DNA from: Thuidium tamariscinum
Taxonomy: Eukaryota; Streptophyta; Bryopsida; Hypnales; Thuidiaceae
DNA length: 64,000 nt
Assembly: GCA_947034885.2 (NCBI GenBank)
Contig: OZ019759.1
Span: 8,310,501-8,374,500 of the forward strand
Direction of reading: 5' to 3'
The translations under genes and the position numbers were made by a program. Positions 217 through 63,815 of the stretch are shown here, one piece after another. The notes under the pieces are model-generated. The model saw only the letters and a program-made list of their open reading frames with translations. It ran no database searches and was not told the DNA's origin. The first letter of the stretch is position 1. Each line of letters starts with the position of its first letter.

Positions 217-230
217 CGTCGGATCCGACG
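217..230. repeat. GGATCC-centred palindrome, family 1
   Basis: CGTCGGATCCGACG is a perfect 14-bp palindrome. It is the leftmost member of a family that recurs at about 588-605 (degenerate), 947-964, 1267-1284 and 1735-1752. Flanks carry GTACCCC words, as in the other members. Confidence 0.75.
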
Positions 231-587
231 TGACCTTCAGGGGCGAATCCGAGTACCCCAGAATCTGAACGTTCCAAACATTCTGCTTCAATTTAGTGAA
301 TCATGGGGAGTGGGGGGAGCCGTCTTAGCGCCGCAGATGTTCACAATTTCAGGCATCCAAGCCGCTGAGGCTCGTCCAGGCTGCCTCGAGCCAAGGTCGC
401 TCCGGAAGAAACCTCACTCCCGGCACTTGGATCCAACGTTGCCGGAGATGCTCCCCATGCAGGAAACCAGAGTCACGACACGCGGATGCTAGGCCCCGGA
501 GATGGTGCCCAATATTCTACAGGTGTTATTTGCGATTGTTTCTCTCAGTTAGGAGGATTTGGGGGTACCCCGACCCTGAACAAGAAT

Positions 588-605
588 CTCCTTCGGATCT
601 GACGG
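588..605. repeat. degenerate family-1 palindrome
   Basis: The core reads CCTTCGGATCTGACGG, the family-1 palindrome with two substitutions. It lies downstream of a GGGGGTACCCC flank at about 561-571, the same arrangement as the copy at 217-230. Confidence 0.55.
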
Positions 606-907
606 GATTTTCTGTTTACGGTCGTGGTACCCCTCGTTTTCAATATCTACGGAATTGACAATGAAGTCTAGCTTCTCAAAGAAGATAAAAACGAAATTCA
701 AATGCCAAGCTTCATTCACAGGTTGAAGAAGAGGTACGCTAAACTTCATGCATATTAATGTGAAATTTTGTTTTGGTATCATCTCAGTACCTGCAGGTGC
801 TGTTTTCTTTAGTTTGATCTCGCAGGTACTTCGGAATTGATCTCCAGGTAGTCTACGACTTGTCTTTTCTCCTCGCTGAGCCGAAATGTCTGATATTTTT
901 CGTCGCT

Positions 908-1003
908 GTGCCGGAATTGGGGGTAGCAGGAGCTACCCCAGGAAACACCGTCGGATCCGACGGTGATTCGTGGGGTAGCTCCTGCTACCCCCCATTTCGG
1001 CAC
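908..1003. repeat. 96-bp nested palindrome (family 1)
   Basis: The centre at 947-964 is ACCGTCGGATCCGACGGT, a perfect 18-bp palindrome. Arms at 908-939 and 972-1003 are reverse complements with only a few mismatches, including the perfect block GGGGTAGCTCCTGCTACCCC. Arms and core share the same axis (955.5), so the whole 96 bp can form one hairpin or cruciform with small internal loops. Confidence 0.9.
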
Positions 1004-1240
1004 AGCAAGAAGGCGCCCTCGACTTCAAAGAAGGCACCTGATTCAGGATTGAGTTTTAAAGTTCATGAGGATGCTGGCTGGTTCATTCGGACTTAGTTTT
1101 CGAGCTCTCCAATCTTCGTGGAGTGAAACCTTAGCAGGTGTTGTTCATGGAAAATTGAACGGAATTCCATCCATATAGTCAGACTGTACTTCGGGAATTT
1201 GGTTTTTGATTTCATTTTTGAATATCGGGCATCGAAGTCA

Positions 1241-1310
1241 GAGTACCGCGAGGTACCGGCCAGACTACCGTCGGATCCGACGGTAAGATCTCGAGAGAGT
1301 CAGGGTACCC
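1241..1310. repeat. family-1 palindrome with partial arms
   Basis: ACCGTCGGATCCGACGGT sits at 1267-1284, extended by one base pair on each side (TACCG..CGGTA). Outer arms around the same axis match only partly (GTACC at the left outer end, GGTAC at the right), so this copy is more diverged outside the core. Confidence 0.75.
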
Positions 1311-1379
1311 AGAATTTGGTTTCATCCAGGTGACCGTTGGTTTCGGGGTCATGATATTTTTTTCTCTCTCAGGTACCTC

Positions 1380-1426
1380 AGCCTTGTACGACCTCATCTG
1401 ATGATGTGATGAAGAATTCTGAGAAG
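1380..1426 (+). other. possible 5' exon ending at a GTGAGT donor
   Basis: A GAGAAG|GTGAGT donor follows at 1427. The frame ending there (..SSDDVMKNSEK) would join in phase 0 to the ORF starting at 2108, after a TTTGCAG acceptor. This is inference from splice consensus only; no start codon can be fixed. If right, the family-1 palindrome at 1744 lies in the intron and those at 956 and 1276 lie in or before the leader. Confidence 0.3.
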
Positions 1427-1700
1427 GTGAGTCCTCCTGACATTTCACTTTCATTCGTATTTGTTGAAGTATTCTCCATGTCAAAGTTTATATAATTTGA
1501 TATTGTGTTTTAATTTTTGTTTCAATTTATTATTATTCATCCCCTTGAATCTTGCACCTTCCCCATGAATCAAAGATATTTTTTAATATTTGGAATGTTT
1601 ATTACAAGTCCGGATGATTATTGATGTGTATAAAGATGGTGATGAATTTTTTCATACAAAATCCTTAATCTATGAAGTCAATAAATTTTCTTGAAGTATG

Positions 1701-1786
1701 GAAATCTAGGGTACCACGAGGTGCCACGGGGAGGACCGTCGGATCCGACGGTCCTTTCCATGTTACCTCATGGTACCCTAGATTTT
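1701..1786. repeat. 86-bp nested palindrome (family 1)
   Basis: The core ACCGTCGGATCCGACGGT at 1735-1752 extends to GGACC..GGTCC. Outer arms 1701-1716 and 1771-1786 (AATCTAGGGTACCA and its complement) match at 15 of 16 positions about the same axis (1743.5). Between arms and core the match is partial (about 12 of 18). The core is identical to the copies at 947 and 1267, while the arm sequence differs. Confidence 0.88.
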
Positions 1787-2107
1787 CATTTGTTGAAAGG
1801 GTCAAACTATTTTTTCTTCATAAGCATTCCTAAGGGTTTAGGGACAATTGGTGGAAACGCAATAAAAAAGTAAGAGAAAAGATTTTGTAAAATTAAAATT
1901 CTCTAAGTCTTTAACGTCCTTGAAAGTTTTCATAAAGGATTCTATTGATATTATTTTGATGTCATATTACTATATTCTTGTTGGAATAAAGATAGATAAC
2001 CTTATGAACATGCTTCTTTGCTATTTCATTCTTCACAAATGCCTAATTTCATTTGTCATTGAATAGTTGTAAATATTCATTTATATTTTTTTTTTCATTT
2101 TTTGCAG

Positions 2108-2545
2108 GATGGTCAACGAAGAGGTAAACGTTTGAAGACTTCCTTTACAGAGAAGCAACCCCCCCTAGAGCAATCTTTTCCAGCTCTTGACATTGGAGGA
2201 CCATCGGAGCCAAAGAAGTGGCCACAGCCTGGCGTACCACTCTCAAGTGATTCTAGTGACGAAGAACAAACTCTGGTGAGTTTTGCAGATATAATGGATG
2301 CTGCTGAGCGAGCTGCCAATGATTTTGAGGGAGATAGATTGAGTTGGAACCGTGGCCCCGGTCCTTGGTTTTCTTCAGAGAGCTCAGAAACAGAGTATTC
2401 CTCTGCTATAGAACTCTCCAATGCTAGTTCTAGTCCTCCGTTTGAGGAAGCCTATGAATCAAACCACACTGGTAAATTTTATACTTACAAGGTCATCATC
2501 CTCAGTTCTGACTCTGAGGATGATGATGTTGACATCATAGGGTAG
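2108..2545 (+). CDS. short acidic ORF or upstream exon, unknown function
   Basis: The frame opens after a TTTGCAG acceptor-like sequence and runs 145 codons to TAG. It begins with a basic stretch (RRGKRLK) and becomes Ser/Asp/Glu-rich, with SSDSSDEE near the middle and SDSEDDD near the end. It looks like a disordered acidic protein, with no domain I recognise. A GT near its end would leave phase 2, which does not join in frame to the exon at 2781. It may therefore be a separate small gene just upstream of the methyltransferase-like gene, or the end of a transcript whose first exon is near 1426. Composition and position suggest it is real, but the start is not fixed. Confidence 0.45.
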   Translation, partial: DGQRRGKRLKTSFTEKQPPLEQSFPALDIGGPSEPKKWPQPGVPLSSDSSDEEQTLVSFADIMDAAERAANDFEGDRLSWNRGPGPWFSSESSETEYSSAIELSNASSSPPFEEAYESNHTGKFYTYKVIILSSDSEDDDVDIIG

Positions 2546-2780
2546 ATTTGGTTTCCTTAGGTTCAATCATCCTAGCAATATTTCTTTGTATGGCCCATAA
2601 ACAAAGCCTTGTAAAGGCTCATTTTGTCTCAATCTCACCTGAGCATTTTTCAATTGAGAAATATCATTATATTAGTAAAGCAATTAACATTGCAAATTTT
2701 GTTATGTGCTTACACGATTAGTACATTTTTTTTGTTGACTTTGCTCTCAATCAATAATATCTTTGAACTTGTACTTCCAG

Positions 2781-5700
2781 ATGGATGTCTCACCTGTCAA
2801 AGAAACTCAAGCGGAAACCATCTATGAGACTCCAAAAACAGATGAGGCAAGACAACCACATATTGTCGGAGGAGAGGAAGACCTTCCAATGGAAATGATT
2901 TACGATGAAGAGGAGAAGAAAATGTTGGAGGACGACTTGAGGCGTATTCAAAAGGGCGATTCAGTGGACATTCTCTCCCAACTTCGCATGAAGCCCGAAG
3001 AGCTTTATCGGCTTCGCATTCCCCTTTGCAGGCTAGTAGCCATGCCCATGGTAAGGCCTACTCTAGCTTCTGATATTGTCAAGTTGGAGCAAGAATTTGC
3101 TGGGGGATATCAGGATGGAGCAGTTGCTTTCTACGTGTCTACCACGAATGAGGAAGGATACAGCTCAGAGTTCACTGAGGCTGAGATGAGTGAATGGGAC
3201 CCCATTTGGAGAGAAAAGAATGAGGTATTTGAGCGGTACCTGGAGTCCACGGTCGAACTCAAGTCCCTGAAGAACTTGAAGTTCTTCATTTGCGATGGGA
3301 ATCACAGAAGAATTGCCTGGATGAATCTCATAGATAGGTGTTATACTTTGATCCCAAAGTGGCACTATGTTGTGGATAGCATTCTATTGGATACTAAAGG
3401 GAGAACGGAGCTTGTTATGCAAGTGATGCATGATATCAACAAGTAAGTTCTCCAATTCAAATGTTTTCAAGATTTCAGTTGTTTACAATTTTATTTTATG
3501 TTTCTTTAGTAGAAAATAGAAGGACTTACTTTGATTTCATTGTCATTGATGACGTACAGATCGGTGGAGGACTCTCATGTCAAGACTAACTTGGTACATA
3601 CTTTGTACCAAGTGCAAAAGTATGGACTTCTACCAATTGAAAGGTTTGCAGATCTTCTAAGGCCCTCAGAGAAGAAGAAGTGTCTTGAAAACAAGGTTTC
3701 TCGGAAGTGGTACAGCATACCCGTGGAGGTTTTCACGTCCTTCATTTTCAGGGTAAGAATTTATTTCCTATAGAAATTATATATTGTTCAAATTGACAAA
3801 CATTTGAACTCTGGGATTTACTAATTTCCAAAATTGGTTTATTATGCAGCAAGAGATTTCTCAAGCTGCAGATTCTGCAGTGAGAAAGTATAATGATGTT
3901 ACAGCAGAATGCGATAGGAAGGCAGAACTGGCTGCCCAAGCTATGCGGGAAGGAGCTAGGGAGAAAACCAAGGTTTTGATGGGGAAGATGGGCAAACTGC
4001 TAGCAGTGGCTAACCCTTACAATGGACCTGGCTTTCTTGAGGAGGTGAGTAATGTATAAATGTGGTGCATGATTATGTGTTGGTCTTTCAATAAATGGAT
4101 TTGGAACTAAAAATCTGAAGATTTCTTATATAGGTGGAGAGGCATTGGAGCACCAATGAAGTGCCCGAGATGACATTGGAGAAACTGCAACTTGTGGCCA
4201 CGTGTAGTATGACTTCAGCGCACAAGATCAAGATCTTGAGCTGGTGGAATTCTTCTGTTCCATCTCGTGAAGCACGAAAGTTCCCACCGAAACCTGTTTC
4301 CGAGCTTCTCCTTCCTCAATTTCTTGCCAAATGCGTTTGGTATGCAAGGGTAAGTAATAAATTGGTTGTGTACATTGGTTTGTAGCTTTTCATTATTTGT
4401 TCTCAATATGGCATTTTAGCCTTTATATTCACTTAATGAAATATTGAAGTGTGCATTTTGGTTTGCAATATGTTTTTAGATTGAAGATGCGGCTTTGGAA
4501 TACTTTGATTCGGTGGTGAAGCAAGATAACATCATGATCAATTACAAGATCCCAACACAACCACAGTACTTGGTAGAGTACATTGAGAAGTGGAGGGTCA
4601 TTATATGGGATCATGGCTTTATGAATTATTTCAAGGGCCAAAATTACTTTAAGAAGGGTGACTCCTTCATGGCGCACGAAGGTTCAGCTGCTGCAGTTCG
4701 GAGAGTGCTTTTCCGGTATGTACTATTCTATTTTTTTATACCAATTATGGATAATATTCAGTTATGTGTCTTTCATGACTTAGAAATTAAAGTGATTCAT
4801 TTTTTGTGTTTCTAAATTATTAATTTTTTATATGAGGTTCATTTGTTAAGGCTAAATTGACATGCAAGCATGTCTACATTTTGAATCGGATATCACTGAA
4901 TTCTAGAAGATGAGGACTTCAGTTATGAATTATAATGTACTGTCTTGAAGAAAGTGTATTCTACTTTTTAAACTTTTATTTGCTTCTATTATTCTCAAAA
5001 TTGTTGACCTATCCATTAATGGAATTTTCAAATATAATATTATTCTCCTAGTTATATTGGCATGATCAAAAATGTCCCTTTAAAATGTTTATCCTTGTGT
5101 TGCAGATATTTTAAATTTGAGCTTGAAGGAAAAGGGGCAATCGCACGCTTAGACCTCCCTCCGTTTCTGCCAGCATTCCTTGATCGTGGTTCTTCAGCTT
5201 GCATGTTTAGTGCACACCAACTCCGAACTTATACTACGGCGCATCTTACTTCAGGAGGGTGGTACCTTGATTGTACACTCGAGTTCACTCCACCATCAGA
5301 GATTGAGCTGAGGAGGTCTTTGGATGGAAAAGGGGTCGTGGACTGTGACGTCGATGAGTTTGTTGGACTTGATCAGAACGCAAGAAGGAGGGCCATTGCA
5401 AGGAGGGATGCTGTTGACAGAAAGAAAGCAGCTCGAGTCCAACTTCACATTGAAAACAAGGAGAAAAAAGATGCTGAGCGAGCAGCAAAGAAAGCACAGA
5501 AAGACCAGGAAGACAAGGACAAGGAAGAAAAGGGCAAAGGCAAAGGTAAGAAGAAGGAGGAAGCAGGGGCACAAGGGGTGCCATCTTCTACAGTGGATCA
5601 AGGTTCACAGATGGAATCCAAAGTGGTGAGAAAGGTCACTCTCTCCCAGCTCACCGAAGAAGTCATCACACATGTTACACAAGGTATGGTCCTCACTGAA

Positions 5701-7291
5701 GATGATGCGGTGAAGAGTGAGGATTTAATCCTCAACTTCTCCATTCAAGACCTTGCAGACGACATGGAGGAAGACAAACCGACTTTGTACAAGGACGTGG
5801 TACAATTTCTAGAGAAGGTACCAATGTTTATTGTCATTTTTGAACTTCATTGTTTTATTTCAAGTCATTTGATTCTTGTTTTATTTTTTAACTAATTCGG
5901 AGTTGTATTACATATTTGCAGATGTCAAATGGGAAGACTCGCATGTTTGAAGGTGTGCCAAACGTGCGAGTAGGGGTGGATGTCATTTTCATTGATTGCC
6001 CTGAGAATTTACCCGTGCCAGGGCTTTCTTCATCACCAAACAATGTGCCAGAGTGGAACGCAGATGTAGAGGCGGAAGCACTACAATCAGCTTGTAGCTT
6101 TGCCATGGAGCATCTACAAGACCATGGATGCATCATAGTGTTTCATTCATACAGTATGAAGTCCAGGCAAGACATTGCTGGAGTTTGTGAGGCGTATGAC
6201 TTGGTGCACAAGAAGGAGTGGATGGGGATGAACCGCATGCACCTTACCTCGGCTGCAGAGAAGACCAAGACGGTAATTTCAATTGACTTTTAGTGTCTTT
6301 CATCAAAATTGTATATTTCCCTACATTTTAAGCGTTCTAATGTACATTTGGCCTAAATGTGCAGACACAGAAGTTTGGAGTCACCTTGCTTGTGAAGAAG
6401 CTTGGCTCCAAGGGACCATCCAAATTTTCCTTCAAGAAAACCAATATTATGGCAAAGGCAGGTGTTGATGTTGCAGAGGATGACATGCTCATGAACTACA
6501 CCCATCCATATGACATGGCCAGGAATGGGGAGTGGCCTTGGCGGGGTGGGCGTGAAAAAGATCCAAGGTTTTTTACCATCCTCCTCGAAGCTACAAGCAT
6601 TGAAGGAGATTTGATATTGGATTGCACCGCATCTACAGGTCAGTGTTTAATTCAAATCTTTTACACTATAATTGTATTTCACAAATTCAATCAAAGCACT
6701 AATACATTTTATTTCATTCGCAATAGGTGCATGCATTACAGCTTGCCGTGCCACTGGATGCCACATTGTGGCTTTAGAGGGCAACAAAGACATTTATGAT
6801 GCTATCCTCAAGTCGATGAAGAAGTCACTCGAGCGTGTAGTAGAAACAGTGCAGTCAACGCCGGTGGTGGAGCCTTCACAGGATTTGGAGGACATGCCTG
6901 TGGTGCCTCGCAAGTTTGTTCGCAAGGGGAAATCTAGTAAGTAAGTTGGCAATATTTAAATTATTTTTTCACATGTTTGATTCTCTTTTGTGTTCCAGAA
7001 ACCTAATACCATGTCTTATTTTTTTGCAGAGGTCGTGGATTGATGCCAACTTCTGTCATCATTCCAAAACAAAGTCTTCTCATCAGCCTAGAGAAGACTT
7101 TTGAGCTCCCTATCTATGCTGAGCAATTGGCAAGTGCCTTTGCGGAGTTTGGTTGTTCCAAACCAAAGCACCGTAAAGATACTTATGCTCTAAATGTCTT
7201 GCAGTTTGTAGATGTGTCTGCATCTGAGGGTAGAGAGTCCTCAGAGTCATCTACAGGTTCAGATTCTGCAACAGAGTCTACAGCGATTTAG
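2781..7291 (+). CDS. ten-exon ParB-like / DNA-methyltransferase-like fusion protein
   Basis: Exons read as 2781-3442, 3560-3752, 3850-4044, 4134-4349, 4480-4715, 5106-5817, 5922-6272, 6365-6638, 6727-6940 and 7030-7291. All have GT-AG borders and compatible phases, and no stop occurs before the TAG at 7291 (about 1104 aa). Residues 172-177 read DGNHRR, in a context like the ParB/sulfiredoxin-fold nuclease motif. Exon 6 carries a Lys/Glu-rich charged linker. Exon 7 has VDVIFIDCPEN where N6/N4 DNA methylases have a D-P-P-Y motif, and the exon 8/9 junction encodes LILDCTASTGA followed by IVALEGN, like SAM-binding motif I (DPFxGxG) and its downstream acidic strand. ParB plus methylase pairing is known from phage and plasmid genes, so an origin by transfer or from a mobile element is inferred. 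The altered DCPEN and DCTAST motifs make normal methyl transfer doubtful. The ATG lies directly after the splice acceptor, so the 5' UTR is probably spliced. Confidence 0.8.
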
Positions 7292-7714
7292 ATTCAGAAG
7301 ATTGATAAATCTCTTGGATCAAACTTTTGTGTATTGATTTTTATTATGATTGGATTTGTGTGTTTTATGGCTACTTCTTTGATGTATTTCATTTTCTTGC
7401 ATAAAAATGTTTATTGCTTCATTTATATTTATTTAAATAATATTTAATCTTTGTCTTGTAGAAAATCATATAAAGAATAATCAATTAGTTGTCTTATTGG
7501 ACAAAGGTATTCCCCTAAACCCTAAACCCTATACTCTTACCATGAATTTAAATTGTTCTAAAACAATTTCCTAAACAATGAACAAATAAGTGACAGATAA
7601 TGTATATTTTGGCAACCACGGTCATAGGACCATCCACGGTCATAGATCCTTCATCAATTTTTGTGAATTTTTTTTTCCCGCTCACAGGCTCATAGGCTCA
7701 CAGGCTCACGCTCC
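7292..7714. other. 3' flank with telomere-like motif and short repeats
   Basis: AT-rich 3' flank of the methyltransferase-like gene. CCTAAACCCTAAACCCT at 7514-7530 is two and a half units of the plant telomere motif. 7683-7724 is a short array of CAGGCTCA/TAGGCTCA words. No gene is seen. Confidence 0.6.
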
Positions 7715-8455
7715 CAGGCTCGCCTGCTAGCAACCCTGACCTTTGAACCATTTGTTGCATTTGGTTTCTTTTGGGGGGAGTAGTGGAGTACTTTAAAATT
7801 ATTAAAATAATTTTGAATTTTTAAAAAAAAAATGATTATTGTAAACACCTTGAAGATGAAGAAAAACATGAAAGGATATTTGTTAAGGAAATCTCTAAGT
7901 AGGAGAATTTGAGAAGTGCCAAACCTCATGAAAATATATGTCTCAATGTTCTAATTAGTAAAATATAGAATATTAAATATATAAAAAAAAACTTTTTTTT
8001 AATTTGCAAAAACTTTATGGAGGTGGTTATTCATTAATATAATCACCAAAATCATTTTTCACATGTTTCCCAAAAGACATAGAAGGAGGTTCACTTTATG
8101 GACTTGTACACCACTACATCACATAAAAATAATTTATCCTAAATTCCTTCTCTATATAGCTACAAGTCTACTAGAAGACCATTTCATCCAAATTTGAGCT
8201 CAAAATCATTAAAAAAAGGGACTCAATAGTACTCAAAACCTCCAAAATGGCATTTCGGACATTTAGTTCGGGTCTATTTTGAAATAGTGAAATATTTTTA
8301 AAAGTAATTTAAAAATTAGACAAATTGTATAATAGTGATGAGCACGTTCTCTAAATTTTTTGCGTCATTTAAAATTAAAACACAAAAATAATCGCCAAGG
8401 GATAGATCATCACATGCCAAATGAGACAAAATAGCAAATGAGTTTATTACATCCA
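7715..8455. mobile_element. diverged MITE-like element, second copy of the 42.6-43.3 kb family
   Basis: In reverse orientation this stretch aligns by eye with the element at 42583-43315. Matching blocks include GGAGTACTTTAAAATTA, TCTAAGTAGGAGAATT, GCCAAACCTCATGAAAAT (against TTGAGGTTTGGCAC) and ACTAGAAGACCATTTCATCC. Ends are eroded (AACCATTTGTTGCATTT on the left, AAATAGCAAATGAG on the right), so borders are approximate and no target-site duplication is visible. It is noncoding. Confidence 0.7.
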
Positions 8456-13359: not shown

Positions 13360-13512
13360 GGGATTTGTTGCAGTCGATAACAAGGAATCACGAAAACGTA
13401 GCCGAATAGAGAAAATAGTCAATATTCATCCAAAGGTTAATGCATGCAGCCAATGAAGGTTGCAAGATTAGAAGCCTCGATGGAGAATGAAGGTAATATG
13501 AGGGGGCGACTA

Positions 13513-13520
13513 CATTTATA
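13513..13520 (-). promoter_or_regulatory. TATA box for RING-H2 copy 1
   Basis: Reads TATAAATG on the minus strand, about 155 bp upstream of the copy-1 ATG. Two sister copies have TATAAATT 205-270 bp upstream of their ATGs. Confidence 0.5.
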
Positions 13521-13521
13521 G

Positions 13522-13660
13522 GTGGTGCGACCACGGGTACAGGGCGCGTGCCGAGGTCGGAGGCAGGCGATCGCATGTCTGGTAGGGCGACCACGGGTCT
13601 GGGTAGGGCGACTGCGGATCGCGGTAGGGCGACCACGGGTAGGAAGAGGCGACTTCGGGT
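13522..13660. repeat. 21-bp GC-rich minisatellite
   Basis: Units of GTAGGGCGACCACGGGT plus four bases start at 13582, 13603 and 13624 (21-bp period). Related units are at 13522 and 13645. It lies directly upstream of RING-H2 copy 1. Confidence 0.75.
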
Positions 13661-13893
13661 CGTCCCTGTGCAAAGCGCGGTCACCCTCCATGCACGGTCG
13701 CCTTTTTACGTGGTCGCCTCCCCTGGACCCGCATGCGCCTCCGAATTTGCCACGCGGACGCCACATGGCATCCAAGTGGCCTTGGTAAAAGAGGGGTAAA
13801 CTTTTTAAAAGTCAAAGGTAACTTTGACTCTATTGGACGTCGCGTGACGTCTGGTTGTCGCGTTGTCGCTAGAGAAAACCCTGATCGTCATTC

Positions 13894-19087: not shown

Positions 19088-19442
19088 GTCAGCAGACTTT
19101 AGGGTCAATTTTCACCTTGTAAAATTAATTTTTTCAATAAATTTTGAACTAATGAAAGTTGTAAAATTGATATATCTTTCACCTCCAACAATTTTTTTGA
19201 GATTTAGATCTTCCAATCAAAAGTTATGAACAAAAATCAGAGAGGAGTAGAAATGGACATTCTTTTTTACATTTTTAAACACCTTCTCTGATTTTTGTTC
19301 ATACCTTTTAATTGAAAGATCTAAATCTTAATTGGATTGATGTAGGTGAAAGATATCTTCATCTTACAACTTTCATTGGTCCAAAGGTTTTTTTGAAAAG
19401 TTATCTACTAGGACAAAATTGCCACTAAAAGTCTACTGACTT
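19088..19442. repeat. long hairpin 1 in the CACTA element (~355 bp)
   Basis: Arms open with AAGTCAGCAGACTTT on the left and close with AAAGTCTACTGACTTTT on the right. They pair via CTCCAACAAT / ATTGGATTGATG-type sequence and meet at CAAAAATCAGAGA..TCTCTGATTTTTG around 19265. Pairing is good but imperfect. It is related in sequence to hairpin 2. Confidence 0.8.
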
Positions 19443-19610
19443 TTGATGGGAAAAAAGTTAAAGAATAATATAATTAAAATTATATGTCTCAAATCCAAAT
19501 TCAAATATAAGTATAATTTTAATCCTTTTGTTTCTTCATAAGCCTTTGAAGTCTTAATTTTATAATGTAGATTTCTTTTTAAATTAAATCATCACAAATC
19601 GGATTTTTGA

Positions 19611-47109: not shown

Positions 47110-48637
47110 TGGACGGACTGACTGTCCAGACCAAGAAGAGTGCGTCCTCGGGACGAAAACGGCGTCTTAGGGACGGTTAAGGATGTCCAGGAGATGGTCT
47201 GTCGGGTTCGATAGCAACGGAACCCTTATTTTCAATGCTTGTTCGTCTAATGGGTGTCCGTCCACCCATCGAACTCATGCTCAAGCGGATGGGGTGCGAA
47301 CACAAAGAAAAGACCGTCTCTGGTTCACATTAGCCAAGTACCCTAGTCCGTCGAAGTTGCGAGGGGGAGGGGGGGGGGCGGCGACAGCCATGCCGTCCTT
47401 CCGGCATTGTAGCCTCGACATTCGTTGTTAGTAAAATCCGACGGGGGACATCTTGGGTGCATCCGTTGAGCGTGGGAGTCCCCGATCCATCAATACTGAC
47501 CATTAGGCCAGGCTGTAATTGTCGAGGTCCAGTAAGTAAAGTTATGAATCCTTCATGATAGCATTTACTTTCAATTTTGTACAACCAATTCTACAAAAGT
47601 TTAACATACTTGGAGACAACAAACAATAGAGAGTCTTCTCCATCATTCACAAAAATGGCTAAATTTCGCTCCAATGCTACTAAGAACTTTTAAGGTAGAA
47701 CCACCCGTAACCAATCATTTAAGGTATTTTAGGCATGATCTAGCGTAATGCAAAGCAAAACAAATATTTTTAGAGGTGTAAAGATAAAAATGATGGGGAT
47801 TCCAAAAAGTTTGGTAATTTTATTACATGAATTGAAATTACTATAAATTTTAGAACACATAAAGGGGGCTTGACCAAATACCAATCTGTGGAGTCTTCTA
47901 ATTCTGATCACATAGAAAACTACATTTTTACTTGCTCTTTTGTACTTTCATGCACCCTACATTAGAACGTGTGCCATCAACTTTGAGTCCCAACTTTAAA
48001 AATGAGAAAAAAACTCACTCTAGCCTTGGTTGGAAATACAACCATCAAAAGGTTGACTATGGAGAGCCTATTGGTTGTAGGTGGTTCTACCTTAGTAGCT
48101 AAATCTCTATAGGAAGTTAGGAACAAATCCTTGAAAAAATTAAATTTTACCTAAGATTATTACAACCAATAGAATGTCATAGCCAATTTTTTACTTACTC
48201 AGTATTGGAATTAGCATCTCTGTAGTTAGTTATGGATATAATAACCCCCGTTATGGTGTTATCCTTTACAACTTGCAAAATCCTTTCTTTCCTAATTTTG
48301 GAAATGTCACTTTCTATCAAGATAGCCAAACTTGATGCTTATTTATCTTGAAGGTAGAAAATTGCACTAAATCTCCTCAACTAGGTAGCATATTATACTA
48401 AATTCTATAAACTAGTTTTGGGATCACTGGTCCTATCCTTATTAATGAAAAGGAAAATGATTTACGGAAAACGATAATTGAAGGCCAAATGGAGAGGTCT
48501 CGTGATGGTAGATATGAAGGTGTATTGTTAATGTAAAGGTCCAATTACCACAAAATGAGGAAGGCCTCTTCAACTAAGCCAAATTGTACACTAAGAGAAG
48601 ATATAGGTTTGGGGGAAGAAAGGGGAGGTGTTCTTTG
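47110..48637. other. GACGG island, G-run and AT-rich spacer
   Basis: 47,110-47,340 carries GGACGG and GTCC words upstream of the kinase-like gene. 47,361-47,380 is a G-run (GGGGGAGGGGGGGGGG) of G-quadruplex type. From 47,420 on the sequence is AT-rich and no gene is seen. Confidence 0.55.
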
Positions 48638-49284: not shown

Positions 49285-49934
49285 GGCTCCCGTGCGAGTG
49301 ACAGGACGAGTCAGGGGTTTAGCGTGGGGATCCGTTGACGGTTCGCATGGGGACAAAGGTGCGTCCTGTCTTCTAAAACCGCTGAGGACGGTCTTCCCGT
49401 AAGTCGAGCCGCCTCCGTCCACTTTTGCTCCGTCCATTCTTGGTGCCTTGAGTCCGGGATTGTTTAGTCTTGGTCCGTCTACTGATGGCCCCTGAAGCAC
49501 ATGAACTTTGGGGACGTAATACCTAAGTCGTGGATGAATTTCATAGCCATGGAAGTACAGGCCGTCAAGAGGACGGCTTTGCCATCACGCGCACGGCTTT
49601 GCCGTCAAGGCGAGGGCGTCACGCGTGCAAAGTGACGGCATAAGAAATGAAAGACAGAAACCGCAATTAATGGTAGGTCCGTCCAATCGACGGTCTTCGT
49701 GGACGGCCAATGGGTTGTGACAGCGAGATCGTATTAGAACCTGCCTTGCATTTTTGGATGCCCTGTTTTGATTACACAACTGTAACGCGTCGTTGCAGTA
49801 ATCACGTTCTCACAGCAATAGCGTCCAAGTAGGTGTCCACGGCCATTGCTGCGGAAGACTGTGCGTTGCATCGTCGTCCTCTTTGCCTTCTTCCAGCTGC
49901 AGGTGTTTGAAACAAATCAGTGTGTTCCGGAAGA
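49285..49934. other. CCGTC/GACGG-rich island
   Basis: By eye, about 11 occurrences of CCGTC or GACGG fall in 49,385-49,705, far above the less than one expected by chance. No gene is seen; it precedes the small ORF at 49935. Confidence 0.65.
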
Positions 49935-50216
49935 ATGGCGAGGAGGCAATGGCGTCCAAGTAGGTTCCCCGTCAACCGTGACCAGTTGATCGAGTATGTG
50001 TAGTGGGCACTCGCTCGATCGGGGTACCTGGCAGGGGTGGTTGAGTTTTGGAATCCGACTTTGTGGCAGCTCATGGTCGACAGGAGGACAACACTGAATT
50101 GGAGCCGTGCGAGGAAGAGGACGGCGCTTGCACGATTCGAGTTGCACACGGGGCGCTACTTCAACAGTTTCCGTCGGGAGCAACAAGCTTTGGCAGCCAA
50201 GCGGCGACGGCAATGA
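49935..50216 (+). pseudogene. small basic protein, unrecognised, one in-frame TAG
   Basis: The frame starts MARRQWRPSRFPVNRDQLIEY and ends in KRRRQ before TGA at 50214, 93 codons, with one TAG at 50001-50003. After the stop it reads WALARSGYLAGVVEFWNPT and then an Arg-rich helix-like stretch with FNSFRREQQALAAKRRR. The aromatic/Arg pattern and absence of other breaks suggest a real exon, possibly a DNA-binding or structural piece of a mobile element. I do not recognise it. Confidence 0.5.
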
Positions 50217-51289
50217 TGGACGAGTCGAGCGGTCCGCTACTCAACGTGTAGTCTTGTTTTTTTGAGTTTTAGAGGTGCACGATATTTGTCAATAGATGAC
50301 TGCAGGCAGTGGCAACCGAATTTTATAGTTTGGAGGGGATCCATATTTTGTAATGTAGAATGCCATGATTTGGCACCGTGTAAATATCTCACGTATTCGG
50401 TGATTTGATTCGGGGTTGATGCCCATTTCTCAATACACTGAGAATTCTCACGTTATCACTGGTGTTTGCAACATTCCTTGAATCTCATGAAGTTCAAAAA
50501 GTTGTCGAAGACTTGATTCTTTGGCTTTGATGTTGTGTCCGTCGTGTTGATGTCTCGGTTGATGCATTGGGGGGATTGTGGATTTCGTTATGCCGTCGCC
50601 ATAGTGTCGTCCGCTCACTCCGTCAAAGGATCTACAAGACGGACACGCCAACGGCTTCTTCGTCCACTCCATCCTCTAGATGCAAAAGGTCATTCTGAAT
50701 CCATCAATCTCTCTAGTGCAGCGTCGAAGTGGCGAACAGATACCCCGTCGAGCTCTGTCGCCACTACTTCTCCTCACAGTAGACTCCATGGACGGAGTCC
50801 TCATGGGGAGACCGTCCCTTAGCCGTCGACATCACTAGGGAGTAGGGACGGACAGATCGTCGATACTCCCGAGCGACGGACCGTCGATTTTAGCGGGGAC
50901 GTGTGGTAGTCTTTTGTGAGACCGTCGACTCTTGATGTCGACGAAATGACCGTCAACTTCGTCGACGCGTCCGTCGACGATGGCAGTTGGCTGGCCGTCA
51001 ATGGCGGTTACGTCCACATTGACGGTCCTGCAGCCTGTTTAGGGGTGGCCATCCCTCTCGACGCCCCGGATTGGTTGTAGGTAAGCAGCCCTAGCTCTAA
51101 AAGCCCCGGTCGCAACATCTTTGCTTTGTTTGTGCTTTCTTTTTTGAAGTTGGAGGTCCTGGTTTGCGAAAAGCCTTGCCTTCCAACTTAGGAGGAAGTC
51201 GGACAAACTTCAATTATCTTACTCGTTTCCGTTTGTTGCTGCCTCCTCGCAGGGTGCACCTGAATCCTGCCCTACTATGATCAGTATTC
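50217..51289. other. promoter region of RING-H2 copy 3 with a dense GACGG island
   Basis: By eye, about ten CCGTC/GACGG words occur in 50,810-51,030, many inside GTCGAC contexts. A leader motif lies at 51155-51188 (GGTCCTGGTTTGC..AAAGCCTTGCC). TCTAAAAG at about 51,096 may be a degenerate TATA box. 50,230-50,500 shows nothing. Confidence 0.6.
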
Positions 51290-53820: not shown

Positions 53821-54460
53821 TTTCTCTCCAAAATGTAATATTTGTCATGAAATATAATTTCGCCTTCTGCAATTTCGTATACTGCTGAGAAGGTTATGCA
53901 CAGAATGCGTCCCCTGAGTGCATCCCCTGAGTCCGTCCACTGGGTCCGTCGACTTGACATTCTAGCACCATCCCATCTTGTCTAGGCGGACAAGAAAAAC
54001 ATTTGACAACGCATTATAATTGCCCAAACCTAGCGACAACTTCCCGATCCTACCATCGCCGTCTAGAAGATGTACTCACCGTCGATGGATTTTTTTCTTG
54101 TAATCTGGACGGTCTTCCTTTCAAATACAACGATGTTTGCTTTCTCTCCAAAATGTAATTTTCTTCATGAAAAATAATTTCACCTTCTTCAATTTCGTAT
54201 ACTGCCGAGAAGGTTATGCACAAAGTGCGTCTCTTGATTCCGTGTATAGAGACCGTCCACCGGGTTCGTCGACCTGACATTTTGACACCATCCCGTCTCG
54301 TCCGGGCGGACAAGAAAATCAGTTGGAGGCGGATTATAATTACCCAAACCTGGCAATGGCCTCCCGATCCTACTGCTGCCGTCTAGAAGACGTACTCACT
54401 GTTGATGGCTTCATTAATGTAATCTAGACGGTCCTCCTTTCAGATATCATGATGTAATTA
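53821..54460. repeat. 320-bp tandem duplication
   Basis: 53821-54140 and 54141-54460 align along their length. Shared landmarks are TTTCTCTCCAAAATGTAAT, AATTTCGTATACTGC.GAGAA, GGCGGACAAGAAAA, CTCCCGATCCTAC-type and CCGTCTAGAAGA.GTACTCAC sequences. It lies between RING copies 3 and 4 and contains GACGG words. Confidence 0.88.
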
Positions 54461-54511
54461 GTGGAAACCAATGTTAATTACCAAACTTAATAGCGTTGGG
54501 GAGTGAGTTTG

Positions 54512-54519
54512 TATAAATT
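54512..54519 (+). promoter_or_regulatory. TATA box for RING-H2 copy 4
   Basis: TATAAATT about 270 bp upstream of the copy-4 ATG, the same octamer as ahead of copy 2. Confidence 0.55.
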
Positions 54520-54579
54520 GACTGGACGGCTTTGTGTTATTCCACAATTCCACTTTGTTCTTGCCATTCTCCTTTAGCT

Positions 54580-54768
54580 GGACAAACCTTGGTTTGCACA
54601 AAGCCCTGTCTTCTAGCTGAGGAGTTTGTGAGACTGTGCAGGTTTTCCAAGCAGGTGGACGGACTTGCAAATCCAACGCAGTGTGCCTGCCGAGTGCTGC
54701 TGGATGGACTTTTGACCTGTGCCCTGGAGCTGGACGGACCTGGTTTGTAGAAAGCCTTGCTTGCTAGC
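54580..54768 (+). promoter_or_regulatory. two copies of the RING-family leader motif
   Basis: 54580-54618 (CCTTGGTTTGCACAAAGCCC) and 54732-54768 (GGACCTGGTTTGTAGAAAGC) both end in a CTAGC word. They match the motifs upstream of copies 2 and 3. Confidence 0.65.
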
Positions 54769-57058: not shown

Positions 57059-57554
57059 AGCTCTAGTGACAAGTAGTAGACTTAGAAGTAAGAGGTAGGT
57101 AGGACAATAGAATAGCATAGGAGAAGCTCACATTACAACCATCCTATATACTGATGGTTATTTTGTATGTGTAAATAATAAAAATAATTTTTTGAACATA
57201 TCTGTGATCTCAATTTGCTTCCTTTGATTACCTGAATGTTGCACCTTTTTTTTGGATTTGTGTACTGGATGGAAGCAAGCATAAATCATAGCATTTTGTC
57301 AATTTTTCAATGCATTAAATAAATTTAAATGAGAATGTAAATTGTTTTAGAAGCTGAAACATACATATGACCCCAAATATGCACGTAAGACATTGCATAA
57401 GAACAAGAAGACACTAGTGCCAGATTTGGGTTCAATTTTTATACTCGTCGTTGATCAGTGTTTATACACTGCGAAAATGTTGTGAATCGACGCCCATGCC
57501 GTCCAGTGAACAATTAGGCTGTCCAGTGCACTCACTGAACATCCAGTCGACGAA
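57059..57554. other. 3' flank of copy 4 and start of a GACGG-rich stretch
   Basis: AT-rich to about 57,460, with AATAATAAAAATAA as a possible polyadenylation region near 57,175. Then CCGTCCAG(T/G) words repeat to about 57,660. Confidence 0.5.
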
Positions 57555-57984
57555 GTGTTCGTCCAGGAGACAATCATCCCGTCCAGAATACCACCAGGCC
57601 GTCTAGGAGACGAGCACGCCGTCCAGGAGGCCGCGTGTCCGTCTTGTCAACGGGTCAAAGACGGACTCGATGAACTTCATCCACCTGTTTTTGGCCCCTT
57701 TCGGGTCGCGTTCGCATCGCGTTGCAATCCGGATGCGTCTCGACGGACGGCGACGGACATCCTGACGGGAAAAGCCAACGTCACGTCGGGATAGACAACT
57801 CTGAAGACCACACCGCCGAACACGAGAGGATCACCTCCGGTCCGACAGAATCCGGCCGCAGAAGAGAGACCAGGACCATCACAGCCGGCGATGGAAGAAA
57901 CGGATTCGAATGATTCGTTCGAGAAGTTGACGATTATTCTATGTAATATCCGAGCGGATTGGGAGATCAAACGCGTAACCCTAG

Positions 57985-59280
57985 GGTTGCTAAAGTATGA
58001 GCAATGCGCGTTGAGCGTTGAGCACTGAGCAGGAAGATTTGAACGTTAAGAATTTTGAGAAAAAAATTTAAGAATGAACACTTAAAAATTAATTTTATAA
58101 AAAATAAATCTTTAGATGTAAATGTCTTATTTCATTCATTACTTTAAATGGATGAAAATAATATCAAATGAATGTAGATGAAAAATGTAGATGAAAAATT
58201 TAAGAACTATGGATGTAGATTATTCTTTGGGTTGTAAAGAGCCTTCATTGAAAGAACTTTTTGGCATCAACAAAAGGCTCCTTGGATCCGAAGACTCTTC
58301 CTTGGGTTTAAAAGAGTCTTCATTGCAAGAAGTTTTGGGCACCAAAAAAGGCTCCTCAGATCCAAGGAGCCTTCTTTGAATTCCAAGGAGCCTTCATTGC
58401 AACTTTGCAAGACGTTCTGGGCACCAGAAAAGGCTCCTGGGATCCGAGGAGCCTTCATTACAAGAAGTTTTGGGTATCAAAAAAGGCTCCTCGGATCCAA
58501 GGAGCCTTCCTTGGGTTCCGAGGAGGCTCTTAGGAATTCCGAGGAGGCTTGTAGAGAGACAATATTAAAAAGCAATGATGGTTTTAAGGCCTCTTCGATT
58601 CACAGATGCTCTAAATGAGCTTTTTGGTATAAATGAAGGGCTCATTGATTTGAAGTACCCTTATATTAGTTCCAAAGTGGTTTCAATAAAAGACCTTTTG
58701 GGCACCAAAAAATGCTCATTGGATTCAAGGGGCATTTTATGAATTCAAAAAGCCTTATTAAAAAAAGCCTTTTGGCACTAAGGAAAAGCTCCTCGAATCC
58801 GAGGAGCATTCTTTAGGTTCTAAAAAAGCCTATACTAGGAGAGCTCTTTGGCTTCAAAGAGGCTTTTAGGAAAACAATATTAAAGAGGACAGATGGTTCA
58901 AAGCCTCTTTGGTTTCAAAGAAGCTTATAATGAGTTGCAAAAATTTTAACAATTTGAAAATTGAATGATGAATGATGGATGATGGATGGATGACATGGAT
59001 GAAGTTCATTCACACATGAATGAATGGGTGTTCATTCATGCAACCTTTTATTATACTATCAACTATTTTATATAATTTTTTTGTAGATTTAAAAAAATAA
59101 TTTAATTTAATTTTTTTTCCATTATTATTTTTGGATTTGATAATACTATTTATTTCTCTAACATGTCTATTTTTAGAAAACATTCTTGCAATGAGCATTC
59201 AAGTTTCATTGCTCATTGCTCAACGCTCAACGCTCAACGCTCAACTCTCATTGCTCTTCGCTCATACTCTAATATCGTTG
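57985..59280. mobile_element. 1.3-kb non-autonomous TIR element with GTTGAGC termini
   Basis: Flanked by a 13-bp direct repeat CGCGTAACCCTAG (57972-57984 and 59281-59293). The left end carries AGTATGAGCAATGCGCGTTG and GTTGAGC repeats; the right end carries the complement (GCTCAACGCTCAACGCTCAA, then CTCATACTCTAAT). There is no transposase inside, and the interior holds the family-3 palindromes. TIR plus duplication length suggest a Mutator-like relative, but 13 bp is longer than the usual 9, so part of the repeat may belong to the ends. Confidence 0.85.
58275..58506. repeat. GGATCC-centred palindromes, family 3
   Basis: Half-site GGCTCCTCGGA followed by its complement. Members are at about 58275, 58350-58371, 58432-58453 and 58485-58506, with weaker ones near 58705 and 58786. 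They are separated by repeated CATTGCAAGAAGTTTTGGGCA-like spacers (unit ~53-82 bp). Most arms pair at 9-11 of 11 positions. Confidence 0.85.
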
Positions 59281-59999: not shown

Positions 60000-61170
60000 G
60001 TTAGCCTTTCTTGTATTTTTATTTTTTTTCACTTAGAATCAGATCAGGAAGTAATCCGGTCCGGATTTAGGAACTTGGAGCGGGTTGGAATCCGATCCGG
60101 TTCAGGAGTAGGTAGGAATAGATCCGCCGAGCGTTAATCGCGGCGGACTTGTATGGCACTTTTTGCTTTTTGCTCATTATTTAAGTCAGTCTCCTCGCGG
60201 CGGACTGGGAGTCTTTCTTTTGCAATTCCTTGTGTATTTTATTTGCTCTTGCTTTGCATGTGTATCTCCCGAGTTTGGCAGGGCGGCGTGACGCGGAGTT
60301 AGGAAGGCGCAAGTGGTTTTGCAGGCGACATTCTCCCTTTGGTGTTTATTTTCCGTGTCTAAGTGTATGAGAACGGGTAGAGAAGAGTTGGGAGTGTATT
60401 TCCAGTGCCTCAACGTTTCTAGAACTTAAGATTCCGGGTGAGAAAGCCGTTGTTAGGCTAGAGGATAGGGAGGGATTCCTTAAGTCGTGCTAAAGCTCCT
60501 GGGTGGGAAATCTGGTTGAGTGTCCGATCTCCTGTGAGGTCTCACCGTCTTAGTGGCAAACGGAAGAGTTCTGGTTGACGTTGGAACGGACGGGTATACT
60601 TGTAACCACCTGACTCCACATGAGTGGAAAGTAGTTCCAAAGTCGTTGTAGTATGAGAAGATCGTACGGGGGATCTCTGTGTAACCTGTAGTCCGGATTG
60701 CTATCCGTGCTGCTGTGAGAGATCAAACCAGATTTGAGAAGTTAGAGGATAGGAAAGTGGGTCTTCAACCACTATAAGTCACGGAAGGAGCGGTGGGCCT
60801 ACCGCTCACAAAATCTAGCGGCGACCCCTCTGATGGTAAAACAAAGGCAAAGCTAAACCGGATTAAGGGACGGATATGTACGGATCATCCAGAACGGATT
60901 GATCCCGAGAGGGAATCAAAAGCGGAATCCGTAAGGATACGGATCTGCCATAGTGGGACGGAACGGATTAGTTTGGATTAGAGACCGGAGCCGTCTAGGA
61001 TCGGATTGACAGAATACCAATGTACGTGGAAAAAGCGGGTTGTTATCTTTGGGTTGTTTGGGTATTTCTGGTTCTACTCTTAGGACCGGATTAGAGAGTT
61101 TTTGGACTGACCCCTCTTAATCGCTTAATAAAGCCAGATACTTCACAGAATCTCGTGGGTTCAATCTTTA
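60000..61170. other. CGGAT/ATCCG-rich region downstream of the gag-like ORF
   Basis: 60,050-61,010 is packed with CGGAT, CCGGAT and ATCCG words, like 35,210-35,400. No intact frame is seen. TTAATAAAGCC at about 61,125 could be a polyadenylation signal. It may be the untranslated part or LTR of the retroelement-like gene. Confidence 0.5.
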
Positions 61171-61379
61171 GAGTCACTTAGTTATACTCTTCAGTGATTT
61201 TTGAGAGTATAATGGGGAATTTACTTACCTTGCATTGCGACAATATTTGTGGAAATTCATTCAAAAGGTAGTGTAATTCTAATTTTGTTTTGACTTTTAT
61301 GTCTATTTCTTCTCTTCTTCAATAAAATTATTCACTTTATTGAAGAATATGGTGTAGAAATGGGATATGGGAAATAAGG

Positions 61380-61625
61380 CGGGTATAGGAAATAGAGGCA
61401 AGTATGGGTATGATAGGCGTGTATGGGATTCAAGGCGGGTATTGGAATGAAGGCCGAGTACTAGGGCTGAGAGGCGGGTATGGAATCAAGGCGGATATCT
61501 CAATGAAGGCCAGGCACTAAGGCTGAGAGGCGGGTATGTCACCAAGGCGGGTATCCCAATGAAGGCCAGGTACTAGGGTTGAGAGCGGGTATGTCACCAA
61601 CACGGGTATCGAAATCCCGCACGCC
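61380..61625. repeat. 56-bp minisatellite (GGCGGGTAT)
   Basis: GAGGCGGGTATG starts at 61471 and 61527, with a shortened unit at 61581. Each unit carries AAGGCGG.TAT, CAATGAAGGCC and a .GG.TGAGAG word. Degenerate units extend left to about 61,380. Confidence 0.85.
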
Positions 61626-62769
61626 CGTGACGAAGTTCACAAATTGAGTTTAGGGTTTCATGTTCGTGAACTTCATCTTCCTCATTTTGTGGTTTTCTTT
61701 CTCCGATCGGTCGCAGCTTTGTCGTCGCTCGTTATTGTCTCGGTGTGCGGACAAGTCTCGAGACGTGGCGGATTTCTTCTCCAATTTGGCGCTCCTTTTT
61801 TGCAGCTCGGTAGTGTGTCAGTTTGTTTAAGAGTCTCGCTGCGTGGGTCCGATTGTTGTTGCTTCCTAGTCTCTCGGTAGTCTCTCGGTGCTTGAGCAAC
61901 GTCTCGCTGCATGAGGAGTGTCTCGATTGGTGGAGCGTAATGGTGGGTTATAAATTGTGTGTAGGAGGCGGAGGAGGGTGCATTTCTATTGTTGTTTTTG
62001 TCATTCCTGTTTGGTTGCTCGCGGTTTAGCATTTGTGTTTTCGAAAGCGCGTGCGCGTCGGAGAAGCGTGTTGGAGGCGTATTGGAGTTGCATATCAACA
62101 GGCGAGGCACATCGGAGGCGCTGCAGCGTCGCCAACCCTAATTTTGAGGATAAGTTTCTTTTGGTTTACGGTACAAGTTTTTTTTTGAATCCAGAAACTT
62201 CCAATTTCTCCGTTTCCTGTTCTATTTGGTTGGCTTCAGGGGATGAAACCATATGCCAAGCTGAAAACATTGTCTCTGCAAGTATTATTTAAGGGATCCT
62301 TTGGAGAATCACTATTGTGGACGAGTGCAAGCATTTGGTTGTGTTAAGGGAGGCTAGGGTGCGTTGCTGTAGCAGCTGGAAGTGGAAAGAGAAGGTGATT
62401 TCATGACCTCTTCCTTTCTGAAGTAATTTTGTAGCATTTGTTTCTGGATTTGGTTAGGGGTGCAGAGCTTCAGATGGTTCACTGAAGACATTATTACTGT
62501 AGAATTCCATAGGCTTTGTGAAGCCTGACCTCTTATCTCTAAACACTGAAATCGTGGACCCTGAGGTCCTATTTGCAATTAGGGTTTACAGTTTAGGACT
62601 CTAAAATCGACCTCAAGTTCAGAAGAGAGGTAGCGCTGACCTCTTACCTTAGGACTCTGAAATCCTACTTTGAATTAGGGTTTAGTACCACGGCCCTAAA
62701 ACCCTTCAACCCAATTCTAGACAAAACACTACGTTAGTATGGAATTAGGGTTTTACGGACTCTTACAGA
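61626..62769. other. spacer with degenerate telomere-like motifs
   Basis: 61,630-62,150 is GC-richer with TCTCG/GTCTCGCTGC words and no convincing product. 62,575-62,755 contains several ATTAGGGTTTA motifs just before the palindrome cluster. Confidence 0.5.
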
Positions 62770-63815
62770 TATCGTTGATTCGATGATAACTTTATAAAGA
62801 ACTACAACTAACTAAGTCACCCTAGCTTAGGTTTCTGAGTAGGTCAATCAATTATCGTTGATCCGATGATAATATAACATATATGTTTTACCAACTAAAA
62901 TTCATCTGTTTTTCCCCTTGAGAAGCTCTTGAGCTTATCCTCGACTTGAGGATATCCTCCTGTTCCTTTATAGCAAATAAAATAAGATGAACTTAGGACT
63001 CCTTTAAGGTTACTAGGTCTTTGGAAGTTTTAAGGTTATCATCGAGCCGGTGATAACGTCGAGAATATTGTATTCACGGTTGTCACGTACTCAGTGACAA
63101 CGTAGTGGATTGGTATGAAAGCCTTTAGAGTATGAAAAGTACCTCAAATTATCCTCATACAGATATAATTATGAAGAACGTTTCCCCCACGATTATTACC
63201 CACCCAATACAAAACTAGTACTTTGACATAGGAGGTCAAAGATATATTTACTTTACCTTCGAGTAACAGTGAGCAAAATATTAACCTTGTACATACCCTC
63301 CTTGTTATCACTGAATCGATGATAACTACTAGACTTTGTTTTGGCTTAGAAATCCTATGACTTCTTTGATAGTTTCTTGGAGTCAATAATAACAAGCAAA
63401 GTAATAATCACTTCCCAAGGCCTAGACCTAAAAATAATGTTTCATCGAGTAGAGGATAAGCTGGATTCCGTTGTCAAGACCTTAAATAACCAAGAACCTT
63501 ATATAGAAGAAACGTAAGAAATTCCGACCATGGTCGCTGTCGTAAGAGTAAAAGCCTGCTTTACGGACGTACGTGCAGCGATGTCAATTTCCATTTCCAC
63601 AAACTAGATTAATGACTGTTATCATTGACTCGATGATAACAAGCATTCACTCTGCAGCAAAGATACCCTTTCCGCAGTTGAATCTTTAGAGGATCCTATA
63701 ATTAACCATCAGATAGATGAAGCTTAAGATTATCTCTTACACAAAATGTTGTTTTGGAATTGCAAAGATAGTCATCACCTTGTACCATGAAGAATTCATC
63801 ATCACATCAATGATA
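62770..63815. repeat. cluster of 21-23-bp palindromes, family 2 (copy B)
   Basis: GTTATCATCGA-type half-site palindromes near 62770, 62852, 62934, 63035, 63079 (variant GTTGTCACGTA), 63304, 63618 and 63796. The first three are spaced exactly 82 bp. The best copies (63035, 63304, 63618) are almost perfect. The cluster ends about 45 bp before the ORF at 63861. Confidence 0.85.

Follow-up and report, generated by a model that had tools for sequence, protein, structure and literature searches.

Family-specific palindrome arrays in DNA transposons of the moss Thuidium tamariscinum

A stretch of 64,000 nucleotides of the Thuidium tamariscinum genome (C11:8310501-8374500 in an assembly of 363.2 Mb and 19 contigs; hereafter the window) contains arrays of three short palindromes, denoted F1 (CCGTCGGATCCGACGG), F2 (TTATCRTCGANTCGAYGATAA) and F3 (AAGGCTCCTCGGATCCGAGGAGCCTT type), in DNA transposons, as well as arrays of other short motifs. 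This pattern of palindromes and motif arrays is real, and it is stronger genome-wide than within the window, where a table of motif by region is nearly diagonal, with a different motif for each family. That F1 and F2 are specific to their elements is strongly supported genome-wide, in the places examined. F1, F2 and F3 are probably family-specific binding sites, each a DNA dyad that a dimeric protein encoded by the element would recognise, a protein comparable to the VANC proteins of Arabidopsis VANDAL transposons. Their status as candidate control sites is a fair inference, because the sites stand in the 5′ regions and introns of genes and the motif is kept where its flanks are lost.

A sequence-only reading of the window had proposed that its transposon-like genes are each preceded by an array of their own, that all of these arrays share a symmetric design, and that they could form an undescribed class of control sites. 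The pattern itself proved to be general, symmetry and novelty were overstated, and the membership of F1 and F2 in two-gene transposons was beyond what the window alone could reveal.

Palindrome density in the window

Motifs were counted in the window by pattern scans, with dinucleotide shuffles as background, and genome-wide as exact matches, with the reversed motif as control. The palindromes had been described as dense, and the counts bear this out: F1 occurs five times with 0-2 mismatches (at 216, 590, 948, 1268 and 1736; 0.07 expected), F2 14 times with at most four mismatches, always in 29672-30334 and 62769-63816 (0 expected from 30 shuffles), and F3 six times in 58274-58810 with 1-7 mismatches (0 expected). 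Imperfect palindromes with a length of 20-21 bp are in excess in the window as well (25, against an expected 6.0 +/- 1.9); nine of them stem from F1, F2 and F3, and a search for exact palindromes recovers four F1 cores. In a scan that presupposes no motif, 23 of 159 segments of 800 bp exceed the best of 477 shuffled ones; these 23 include ordinary tandem repeats (22-24 kb) and telomere-like repeats (31 kb), and F2 is missed because its copies are too variable for exact words.

F1 belongs to a transposon with two divergent genes

F1 has 309 exact places in the genome, against 0 for the reversed control and about 0.1 expected by arithmetic on 363 Mb. The first 50 of these, on contigs C1 and C2, were located, and all 50 fall in DNA with homology to a single transposon, be it to gene A, to gene B or to what surrounds them; the right part of this transposon is present in the window:

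1..7738, plus strand: F1 transposon, right part (whole element 15.7 kb; left end at L023:498, 8003 bases left of the window)
216..231, no strand: F1 site 1, 1 mismatch
590..605, no strand: F1 site 2, 2 mismatches
905..1005: F1 site 3, core 948-963, a near-perfect 100-base inverted repeat with GGTAGC/GCTACC boxes (z score -16.6)
1268..1283: F1 site 4, GGTACC boxes on both sides (1252, 1304)
1698..1790: F1 site 5, core 1736-1751, an inverted repeat of about 90 bases with GGTACC boxes (z score -11.5)
2781..7291, plus strand: gene A, modelled as 10 exons with GT-AG introns, open, 1104 amino acids

The element starts with CAACGACACTAGCG (more fully CAACGAYRCTAGCG) and ends with GCTAGCAACCCTG. A 10-bp target duplication, ACCTTTGAAC, flanks the window copy (right copy at 7739-7748), and duplications of 9-10 bp were found in all five copies of which both ends were fetched. 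The sequence-only reading had put F1 before the gene at 2781. The array does stand there; it also stands between the divergent genes of the element, A (plus) and B (minus), the latter on the side that begins 8 kb left of the window, and the stretch that separates two open frames of gene B holds one further site (-5648 to -5271, counted from the window). In a distant subfamily (about 60% protein identity in gene A), exact F1 sites are found in gene B and in intron 6 of gene A.

The C-terminus of the gene A product is weakly methyltransferase-like (N6_N4_Mtase at E 0.005, below the cut-off; best match among PHROG DNA methyltransferases 2.3e-4). Gene B matches no Pfam family at the cut-off; its 469-amino-acid frame matches a SWIM finger at E 0.36, far below the cut-off, a finger that typically follows the transposase domain of Mutator-like elements (MULEs). 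Target duplications of 8-11 bp are a Mutator-like feature that the F1 transposon has, with its 9-10 bp. The element is nevertheless not filed as a MULE, because Pfam gave no MULE transposase domain at E <= 1 in the gene B open frames and a D-D-E-like pattern there is seen by eye only. A viral origin of gene A was also considered; its peptide patterns were unmatched in viral contigs, from which the exact patterns of F1 (18 bp) and F2 (one strict form) are likewise absent.

The F1 unit extends beyond its core. GTAC-type boxes lie within 40 bp of all five window cores (13 such words, 1.6 expected), and 7 of the 15 GGTACC words of the whole window fall within 564-1777. Among 44 distinct exact F1 sites from the fetched loci, dyad pairing drops to 0.36-0.61 at a distance of 12-22 bp from the centre, then returns to 0.61-0.89 at 23-34 bp, the position of the GGTACC box; the sites of the distant subfamily have no such boxes.

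The hairpin units at 905-1005 and 1698-1790 are very stable, with a constant core and arms that differ between the sites. Palindromes of this kind might act as hairpins, that is, as RNA structures, sources of small RNA or products of template switching in replication, and two of the five window units indeed form near-perfect hairpins about 100 bases long, in which unrelated arms enclose a common core, a third being partial (z score -5.1). We regard this as very improbable for the arrays as a whole, as such arms are missing from the other two window units and from the sites in introns of the distant subfamily. In addition, the half-sites of the 14 F2 copies vary with no compensatory change, consistent with recognition of the site as double-stranded DNA; for F2 a hairpin or RNA function is ruled out by this lack of covariation.

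F2 lies upstream of both genes of a second element

The two F2 arrays of the window belong to the following features:

29672..30334: F2 array 1, six palindromes upstream of the DUF7869 gene
26581..29440, minus strand: DUF7869 gene of the F2 element, frame broken in the window (longest open frames of copies elsewhere about 957-992 amino acids)
62769..63816: F2 array 2, eight palindromes upstream of gene D
63861..64000, plus strand: start of gene D, second gene of the F2 element type, which runs on into locus L028

The DUF7869 assignment (PF25273) scores 119.5 bits for the window copy and 157.3 for a copy on contig C3, with a cut-off of 26. The sequence-only reading had placed F2 before 29440 and before 63861, and both arrays do precede genes; these are two different genes, which adjoin in the C3 copy (loci L039 and L040). 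There the DUF7869 gene and gene D, the latter homologous to the window gene starting at 63861, are divergent, with seven and nine F2 sites at their respective 5′ sides and five more deeper in gene D, four of these between open frames. Since the two genes occur together in the C3 copy, the window arrays either go with both genes of a single element type or stem from two partial copies; in the window they are 33 kb apart, with other elements in between. One terminus of the F2 element lies near AAGGCCTTATTCGTTAAAATGAGAC, followed by a short hairpin (window 25987 and L039:859); a second terminus was looked for, and only this one side was found.

F2 has 88 exact places genome-wide and its reversed control none. 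With the N-terminal part of the DUF7869 protein, 106 copies were scored out of 660 candidates, and 39 out of the 50 F2 places listed are upstream of a scored copy, at 0.8-17 kb, and none is downstream, where chance would give about 1%. From the side of the gene, an exact F2 site is found at most 17.5 kb upstream in 20 of 56 DUF7869 copies on C1-C10, and downstream in 0 of 56. Twelve copies were picked by hand according to identity class and not by F2 (eleven on C1-C10, none among the 20 with an exact site). All twelve have 4-7 F2 sites (at most four mismatches) within about 1 kb upstream, 76 in total against about 0.1 expected, and no F2 site was found in the downstream stretches of six of them. 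Contig C11 holds 50 of the 106 scored copies in 17.5 of the 363 Mb, and could be a sex chromosome or some other chromosome rich in repeats. Relatives of the DUF7869 gene were also sought in viral contigs, where three pattern matches proved to be no relatives.

The distance of F2 from the DUF7869 gene (about 45 bp to 1 kb upstream) would also suit sites for transcription factors of the host, taken over by the elements as promoters, and GATAA and GTAC are known as cores of plant cis-elements. Such an origin is nonetheless improbable, given that all 50 listed exact F1 places lie in homologues of one transposon, so that none was seen at a host gene, that each family has a different motif, and that sites are placed in introns.

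Another view holds that the arrays are merely repeats inherited by young transposon copies. Many copies are closely related (e.g. the F1 transposon at locus L012, 98% identical to that of the window). The positions of F2 give this view hardly any chance. Upstream of the DUF7869 copies L041 (sites at 52, 240, 347, 478, 666, 822 and 878) and L048 (47, 248, 395, 520, 667, 818 and 848) the F2 positions agree, yet BLAST at E 1e-5 gave no alignment between the two upstream stretches. More generally, between the 86-94% and the 72-77% identity groups of DUF7869 copies the upstream DNA aligns over 73 bp at most, and 4-7 F2 sites are kept, most at similar positions. The two window arrays, likewise, have nothing detectable in common except the motif: all BLASTN pieces between them (E < 0.1) are copies of the motif, and their local score is 16.0 with the motifs masked, equal to the null mean of 16.0, and 23.5 unmasked, above the null maximum of 22. 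F1, for its part, is placed differently in different subfamilies.

F3 and the question of transposase binding

F3 has 42 exact places genome-wide and its control none. In the window it lies, as had been stated, inside an element with terminal inverted repeats (TIRs) at 58.3 kb; it precedes no gene found in the window, and no gene was found within the element. A scan at up to seven mismatches gives seven matches in the window, one of which is an F1 site, and the F1 and F3 palindromes have their ten central bases, TCGGATCCGA, in common and differ outside them. The carrier of F3 is a short relative of the F1 transposon. The relevant features, with a further element that has arrays of its own, are:

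57982..59280: F3 element (TIR), termini like those of the F1 transposon, perfect 10-bp target duplication CGCGTAACCC at 57972-57981 and 59281-59290
58274..58810, no strand: six F3 palindromes (pattern scan)
18771..20428: CACTA-type element with TTAACAAAA-type arrays at both ends (subterminal); no gene found and no matching target duplication seen

These elements bear on the main rival explanation, namely that the arrays are binding sites for transposase (repeats of the subterminal or enhancer kind known from CACTA and Mutator elements) that serve excision and insertion and not expression. Several points speak for it: the arrays at both ends of the CACTA-type element in this window, the suitability of dyads for a transposase that acts as a dimer, the presence of F3 in a short element in which no gene was found and which must retain whatever a transposase needs, and, in three copies of the F1 transposon, a site with two mismatches about 0.6 kb from the right end. 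On the other side, no delimited copy of the F1 transposon has an exact F1 site closer than about 2.2 kb to its nearest known end, and F2 stands upstream of two internal gene starts and is absent from all six far-side stretches of the DUF7869 gene. Transposase binding is rather unlikely as the sole explanation, and it could hold alongside an anti-silencing role.

Motif arrays at RING genes and elsewhere

Islands of CCGTC/GACGG had been reported before RING-H2 and kinase-like genes. They are real and do stand there; they also stand on the other side of genes, and they are not palindromic. Eight islands, chosen after inspection, contain 94 copies (14.7 expected), and 500-bp bins that were not so chosen give, for CCGTC, GACGG, CGTCC and GGACG together, for example 20 against 4.9 and 22 against 5.0 expected. 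At 35-58 kb the density is 8.75 per kb in non-coding and 1.63 per kb in coding DNA (about fivefold). CCGTCCA, CCGTCGA or GGCCGTC are the best words of the islands, and one stretch of 321 bp is tandemly duplicated (80% identical). The arrays in question are:

13504..13708: GGGCGACCACGG (GCGACC) array, upstream of RING gene R1 (11389-13086, minus)
36589..36932: CCGTC island, 3′ of RING gene R2
39566..40327: CCGTC island, 5′ of RING gene R2
44698..44865: CCGTC island, 5′ of a hAT gene
47112..47444: CCGTC island, 5′ of the kinase-like gene
49337..51025: CCGTC islands, 5′ of RING gene R3
53933..54737: CCGTC island, between RING genes R3 and R4
57499..57768: CCGTC island, 3′ of RING gene R4

The kinase label comes from the sequence-only reading, and Pfam found no kinase in two frames of that gene. 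RING genes R1-R4 are homologous (31-44% identity); CCGTC is found upstream of R2-R4 and not upstream of R1, which has the GCGACC array instead. In four further RING upstream stretches CCGTC is strong in three (14 against 1.7, 23 against 2.8 and 16 against 2.2 expected). As the hAT and kinase-like genes have the same islands, the motif is regional or shared and not clearly specific to a family. A candidate single element of 22 kb was considered for 36-58 kb, and comparison of the window with itself gave no terminal repeat around the genes there. In a search of the RING family (query 37412-39184), 51 of 125 match rows form one clade (42% identity over residues of about 198-591, on eleven contigs), 45 of the 51 have no stop in the matched part, and most open frames have 802 or 836 amino acids, which suggests a recently expanded and perhaps active RING-gene element.

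Upstream of the second F2 array, a GGCGGGTAT (GCGGGTA) array with a 56-bp period at 61377-61545 goes with no gene. A tandem array with periods of 171 bp and 341 bp lies at 22516-23983, followed by more diverged repeats, and a 640-bp inverted repeat (72% identical) has its arms at 7784-8413, just right of the F1 element, and at 42628-43252, between two pieces of the hAT gene. At 13885-18685 an Ulp1-type peptidase (PF02902) on the plus strand lies beside minus-strand open frames that by eye resemble MULE transposase, for two of which Pfam gave nothing. Split genes with GT-AG introns, together with TTTAGGG strings, mark the sequence as eukaryotic and plant-like; scans gave no tRNA and no Rfam match at the gathering score.

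A possible role for the palindromes

Two kinds of large two-gene DNA transposon carry F1 and F2 in their non-coding parts, at the 5′ sides of both genes and in introns, and F3 is carried by a short relative of the F1 kind. If the three palindromes are recognition sites as proposed, the protein that reads each site would be the element's own, i.e. the product of gene A or gene B for F1, and of gene D or the DUF7869 gene for F2. With less certainty, its binding might keep the genes of the element expressed against silencing by the host, as VANC does in VANDAL, and a private site might confine the effect to the element's own family. Site and reader would diverge together, giving related families related but different sites; F1 and F3 show this relation, and the CCGTC variants among the RING families perhaps do so too. 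The parallel with VANC makes anti-silencing the most likely use. It is possible, as a more tentative extension, that private systems of the VANC type arose more than once in unrelated DNA transposons of this one genome, and that the F1 reader is a methyltransferase-like protein with an altered catalytic motif, a DNA-modification enzyme turned reader of a site.

Several observations weigh against recognition by element-made proteins, or against parts of it. (i) At the candidate F1 reader the signal is weak, its catalytic motif being altered to DCPE where DPPY is usual in such methyltransferases; a ParB relationship of gene A or gene D, suggested by eye, found no support in Pfam, PHROGs or PDB sequences, and homology between genes A and D is unsupported (profile comparison, E about 8). 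(ii) The 16 F1 columns are identical in eight gene A intron-6 sequences, in an alignment with 81% mean pairwise identity, and this perfect conservation is partly ascertained because F1 loci were chosen by exact match. (iii) Eleven of the 50 listed F2 places are without a scored DUF7869 copy within 20 kb (106 of 660 candidates scored), and one F2 site of the C3 copy lies within the last gene D open frame and not in an intron. (iv) CpG retention, with motifs masked, is 0.75 in the F1 array against 0.44 in gene A, and in F2 array 1 it is 0.62 against 0.59 in the gene, not clearly higher, which lends no support to hypomethylation there; a common CpG-island or hypomethylation signal for the arrays is a mixed result. 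At the CpG positions of F2, 9 of 11 changes are transitions, against 16 of 30 at other positions. (v) The symmetric design claimed for all arrays fails outside the palindromes. Neighbouring CCGTC copies 5-25 bp apart are tandem in 18, convergent in 11 and divergent in 7 cases, a mixed orientation that rules out symmetry as the rule of the islands, and symmetry is also absent from the GCGACC and GCGGGTA arrays. (vi) The RING copy L061 has no CCGTC array in 1.2 kb upstream (0 against 0.7 expected).

Comparison with known systems

CACTA elements carry family-specific arrays in their subterminal parts, and TNPA of the CACTA element En/Spm binds the ends and affects methylation, so that the proposal of an undescribed class was already too strong on this account. 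The arrays described here are similar in being family-specific and part of a DNA transposon. They differ in that exact F1 sites are internal, at gene starts and in introns, and not clustered by both termini; such clustering is seen in the element at 18771-20428.

In fungi, DNA transposons with a TET/JBP dioxygenase have been described (PMC12730594), where a DNA-modification gene stands beside the transposase gene, a likeness to the F1 element that is qualified by the weak methyltransferase resemblance of gene A. The enzyme belongs to another class than the putative one of the F1 element.

The closest parallel is that of the Arabidopsis VANDAL transposons, whose published arrays also make "undescribed" too strong a word. 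Family-specific motif arrays in the non-coding parts of these transposons are the targets of VANC (Hosaka et al. 2017, PMC5735166); the motifs reach high density in intergenic regions and introns, related families have different motifs, and a protein encoded by the element is reported to bind them (PMC5735166; Sasaki et al. 2023, PMC10398659). F1 and F2 are similarly dense, family-specific and located in intergenic parts and introns of multi-gene DNA transposons, where binding would be expected by analogy. No counterpart of F1 or F2 was found in a search of the open-access literature, and Pfam gave none of the VANC family domains (DUF1985/DUF287) in gene A, in the gene D open frames of one copy or in the gene B open frames. 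The F1 and F2 transposons are not VANDALs by the tests made, because no VANC domain was found in them and their motifs are not of single orientation. Indeed, F1-F3 are palindromes of 16-26 bp, whereas VANDAL has a nine-base motif arrayed in one orientation (PMC5735166, PMC10398659), built up by tandem duplication; F1-F3 have no orientation, F2 spacing is irregular, and CCGTC occurs in both orientations.

The specificity of the palindromes genome-wide and the persistence of the motifs make the pattern worth work at the bench. The palindromes are exact tags for finding the binding protein of each element, and the genome offers dozens to hundreds of copies for direct comparison of motif, reader and methylation. 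Sequence-specific anti-silencing has been described for one group of Arabidopsis transposons (PMC5735166, PMC10398659); in the moss, by comparison, more than one kind of transposon has such arrays, and if pairs of private motif and reader should prove frequent in another genome and among unrelated transposons, self-recognition specific to the family would be a general strategy of DNA transposons.

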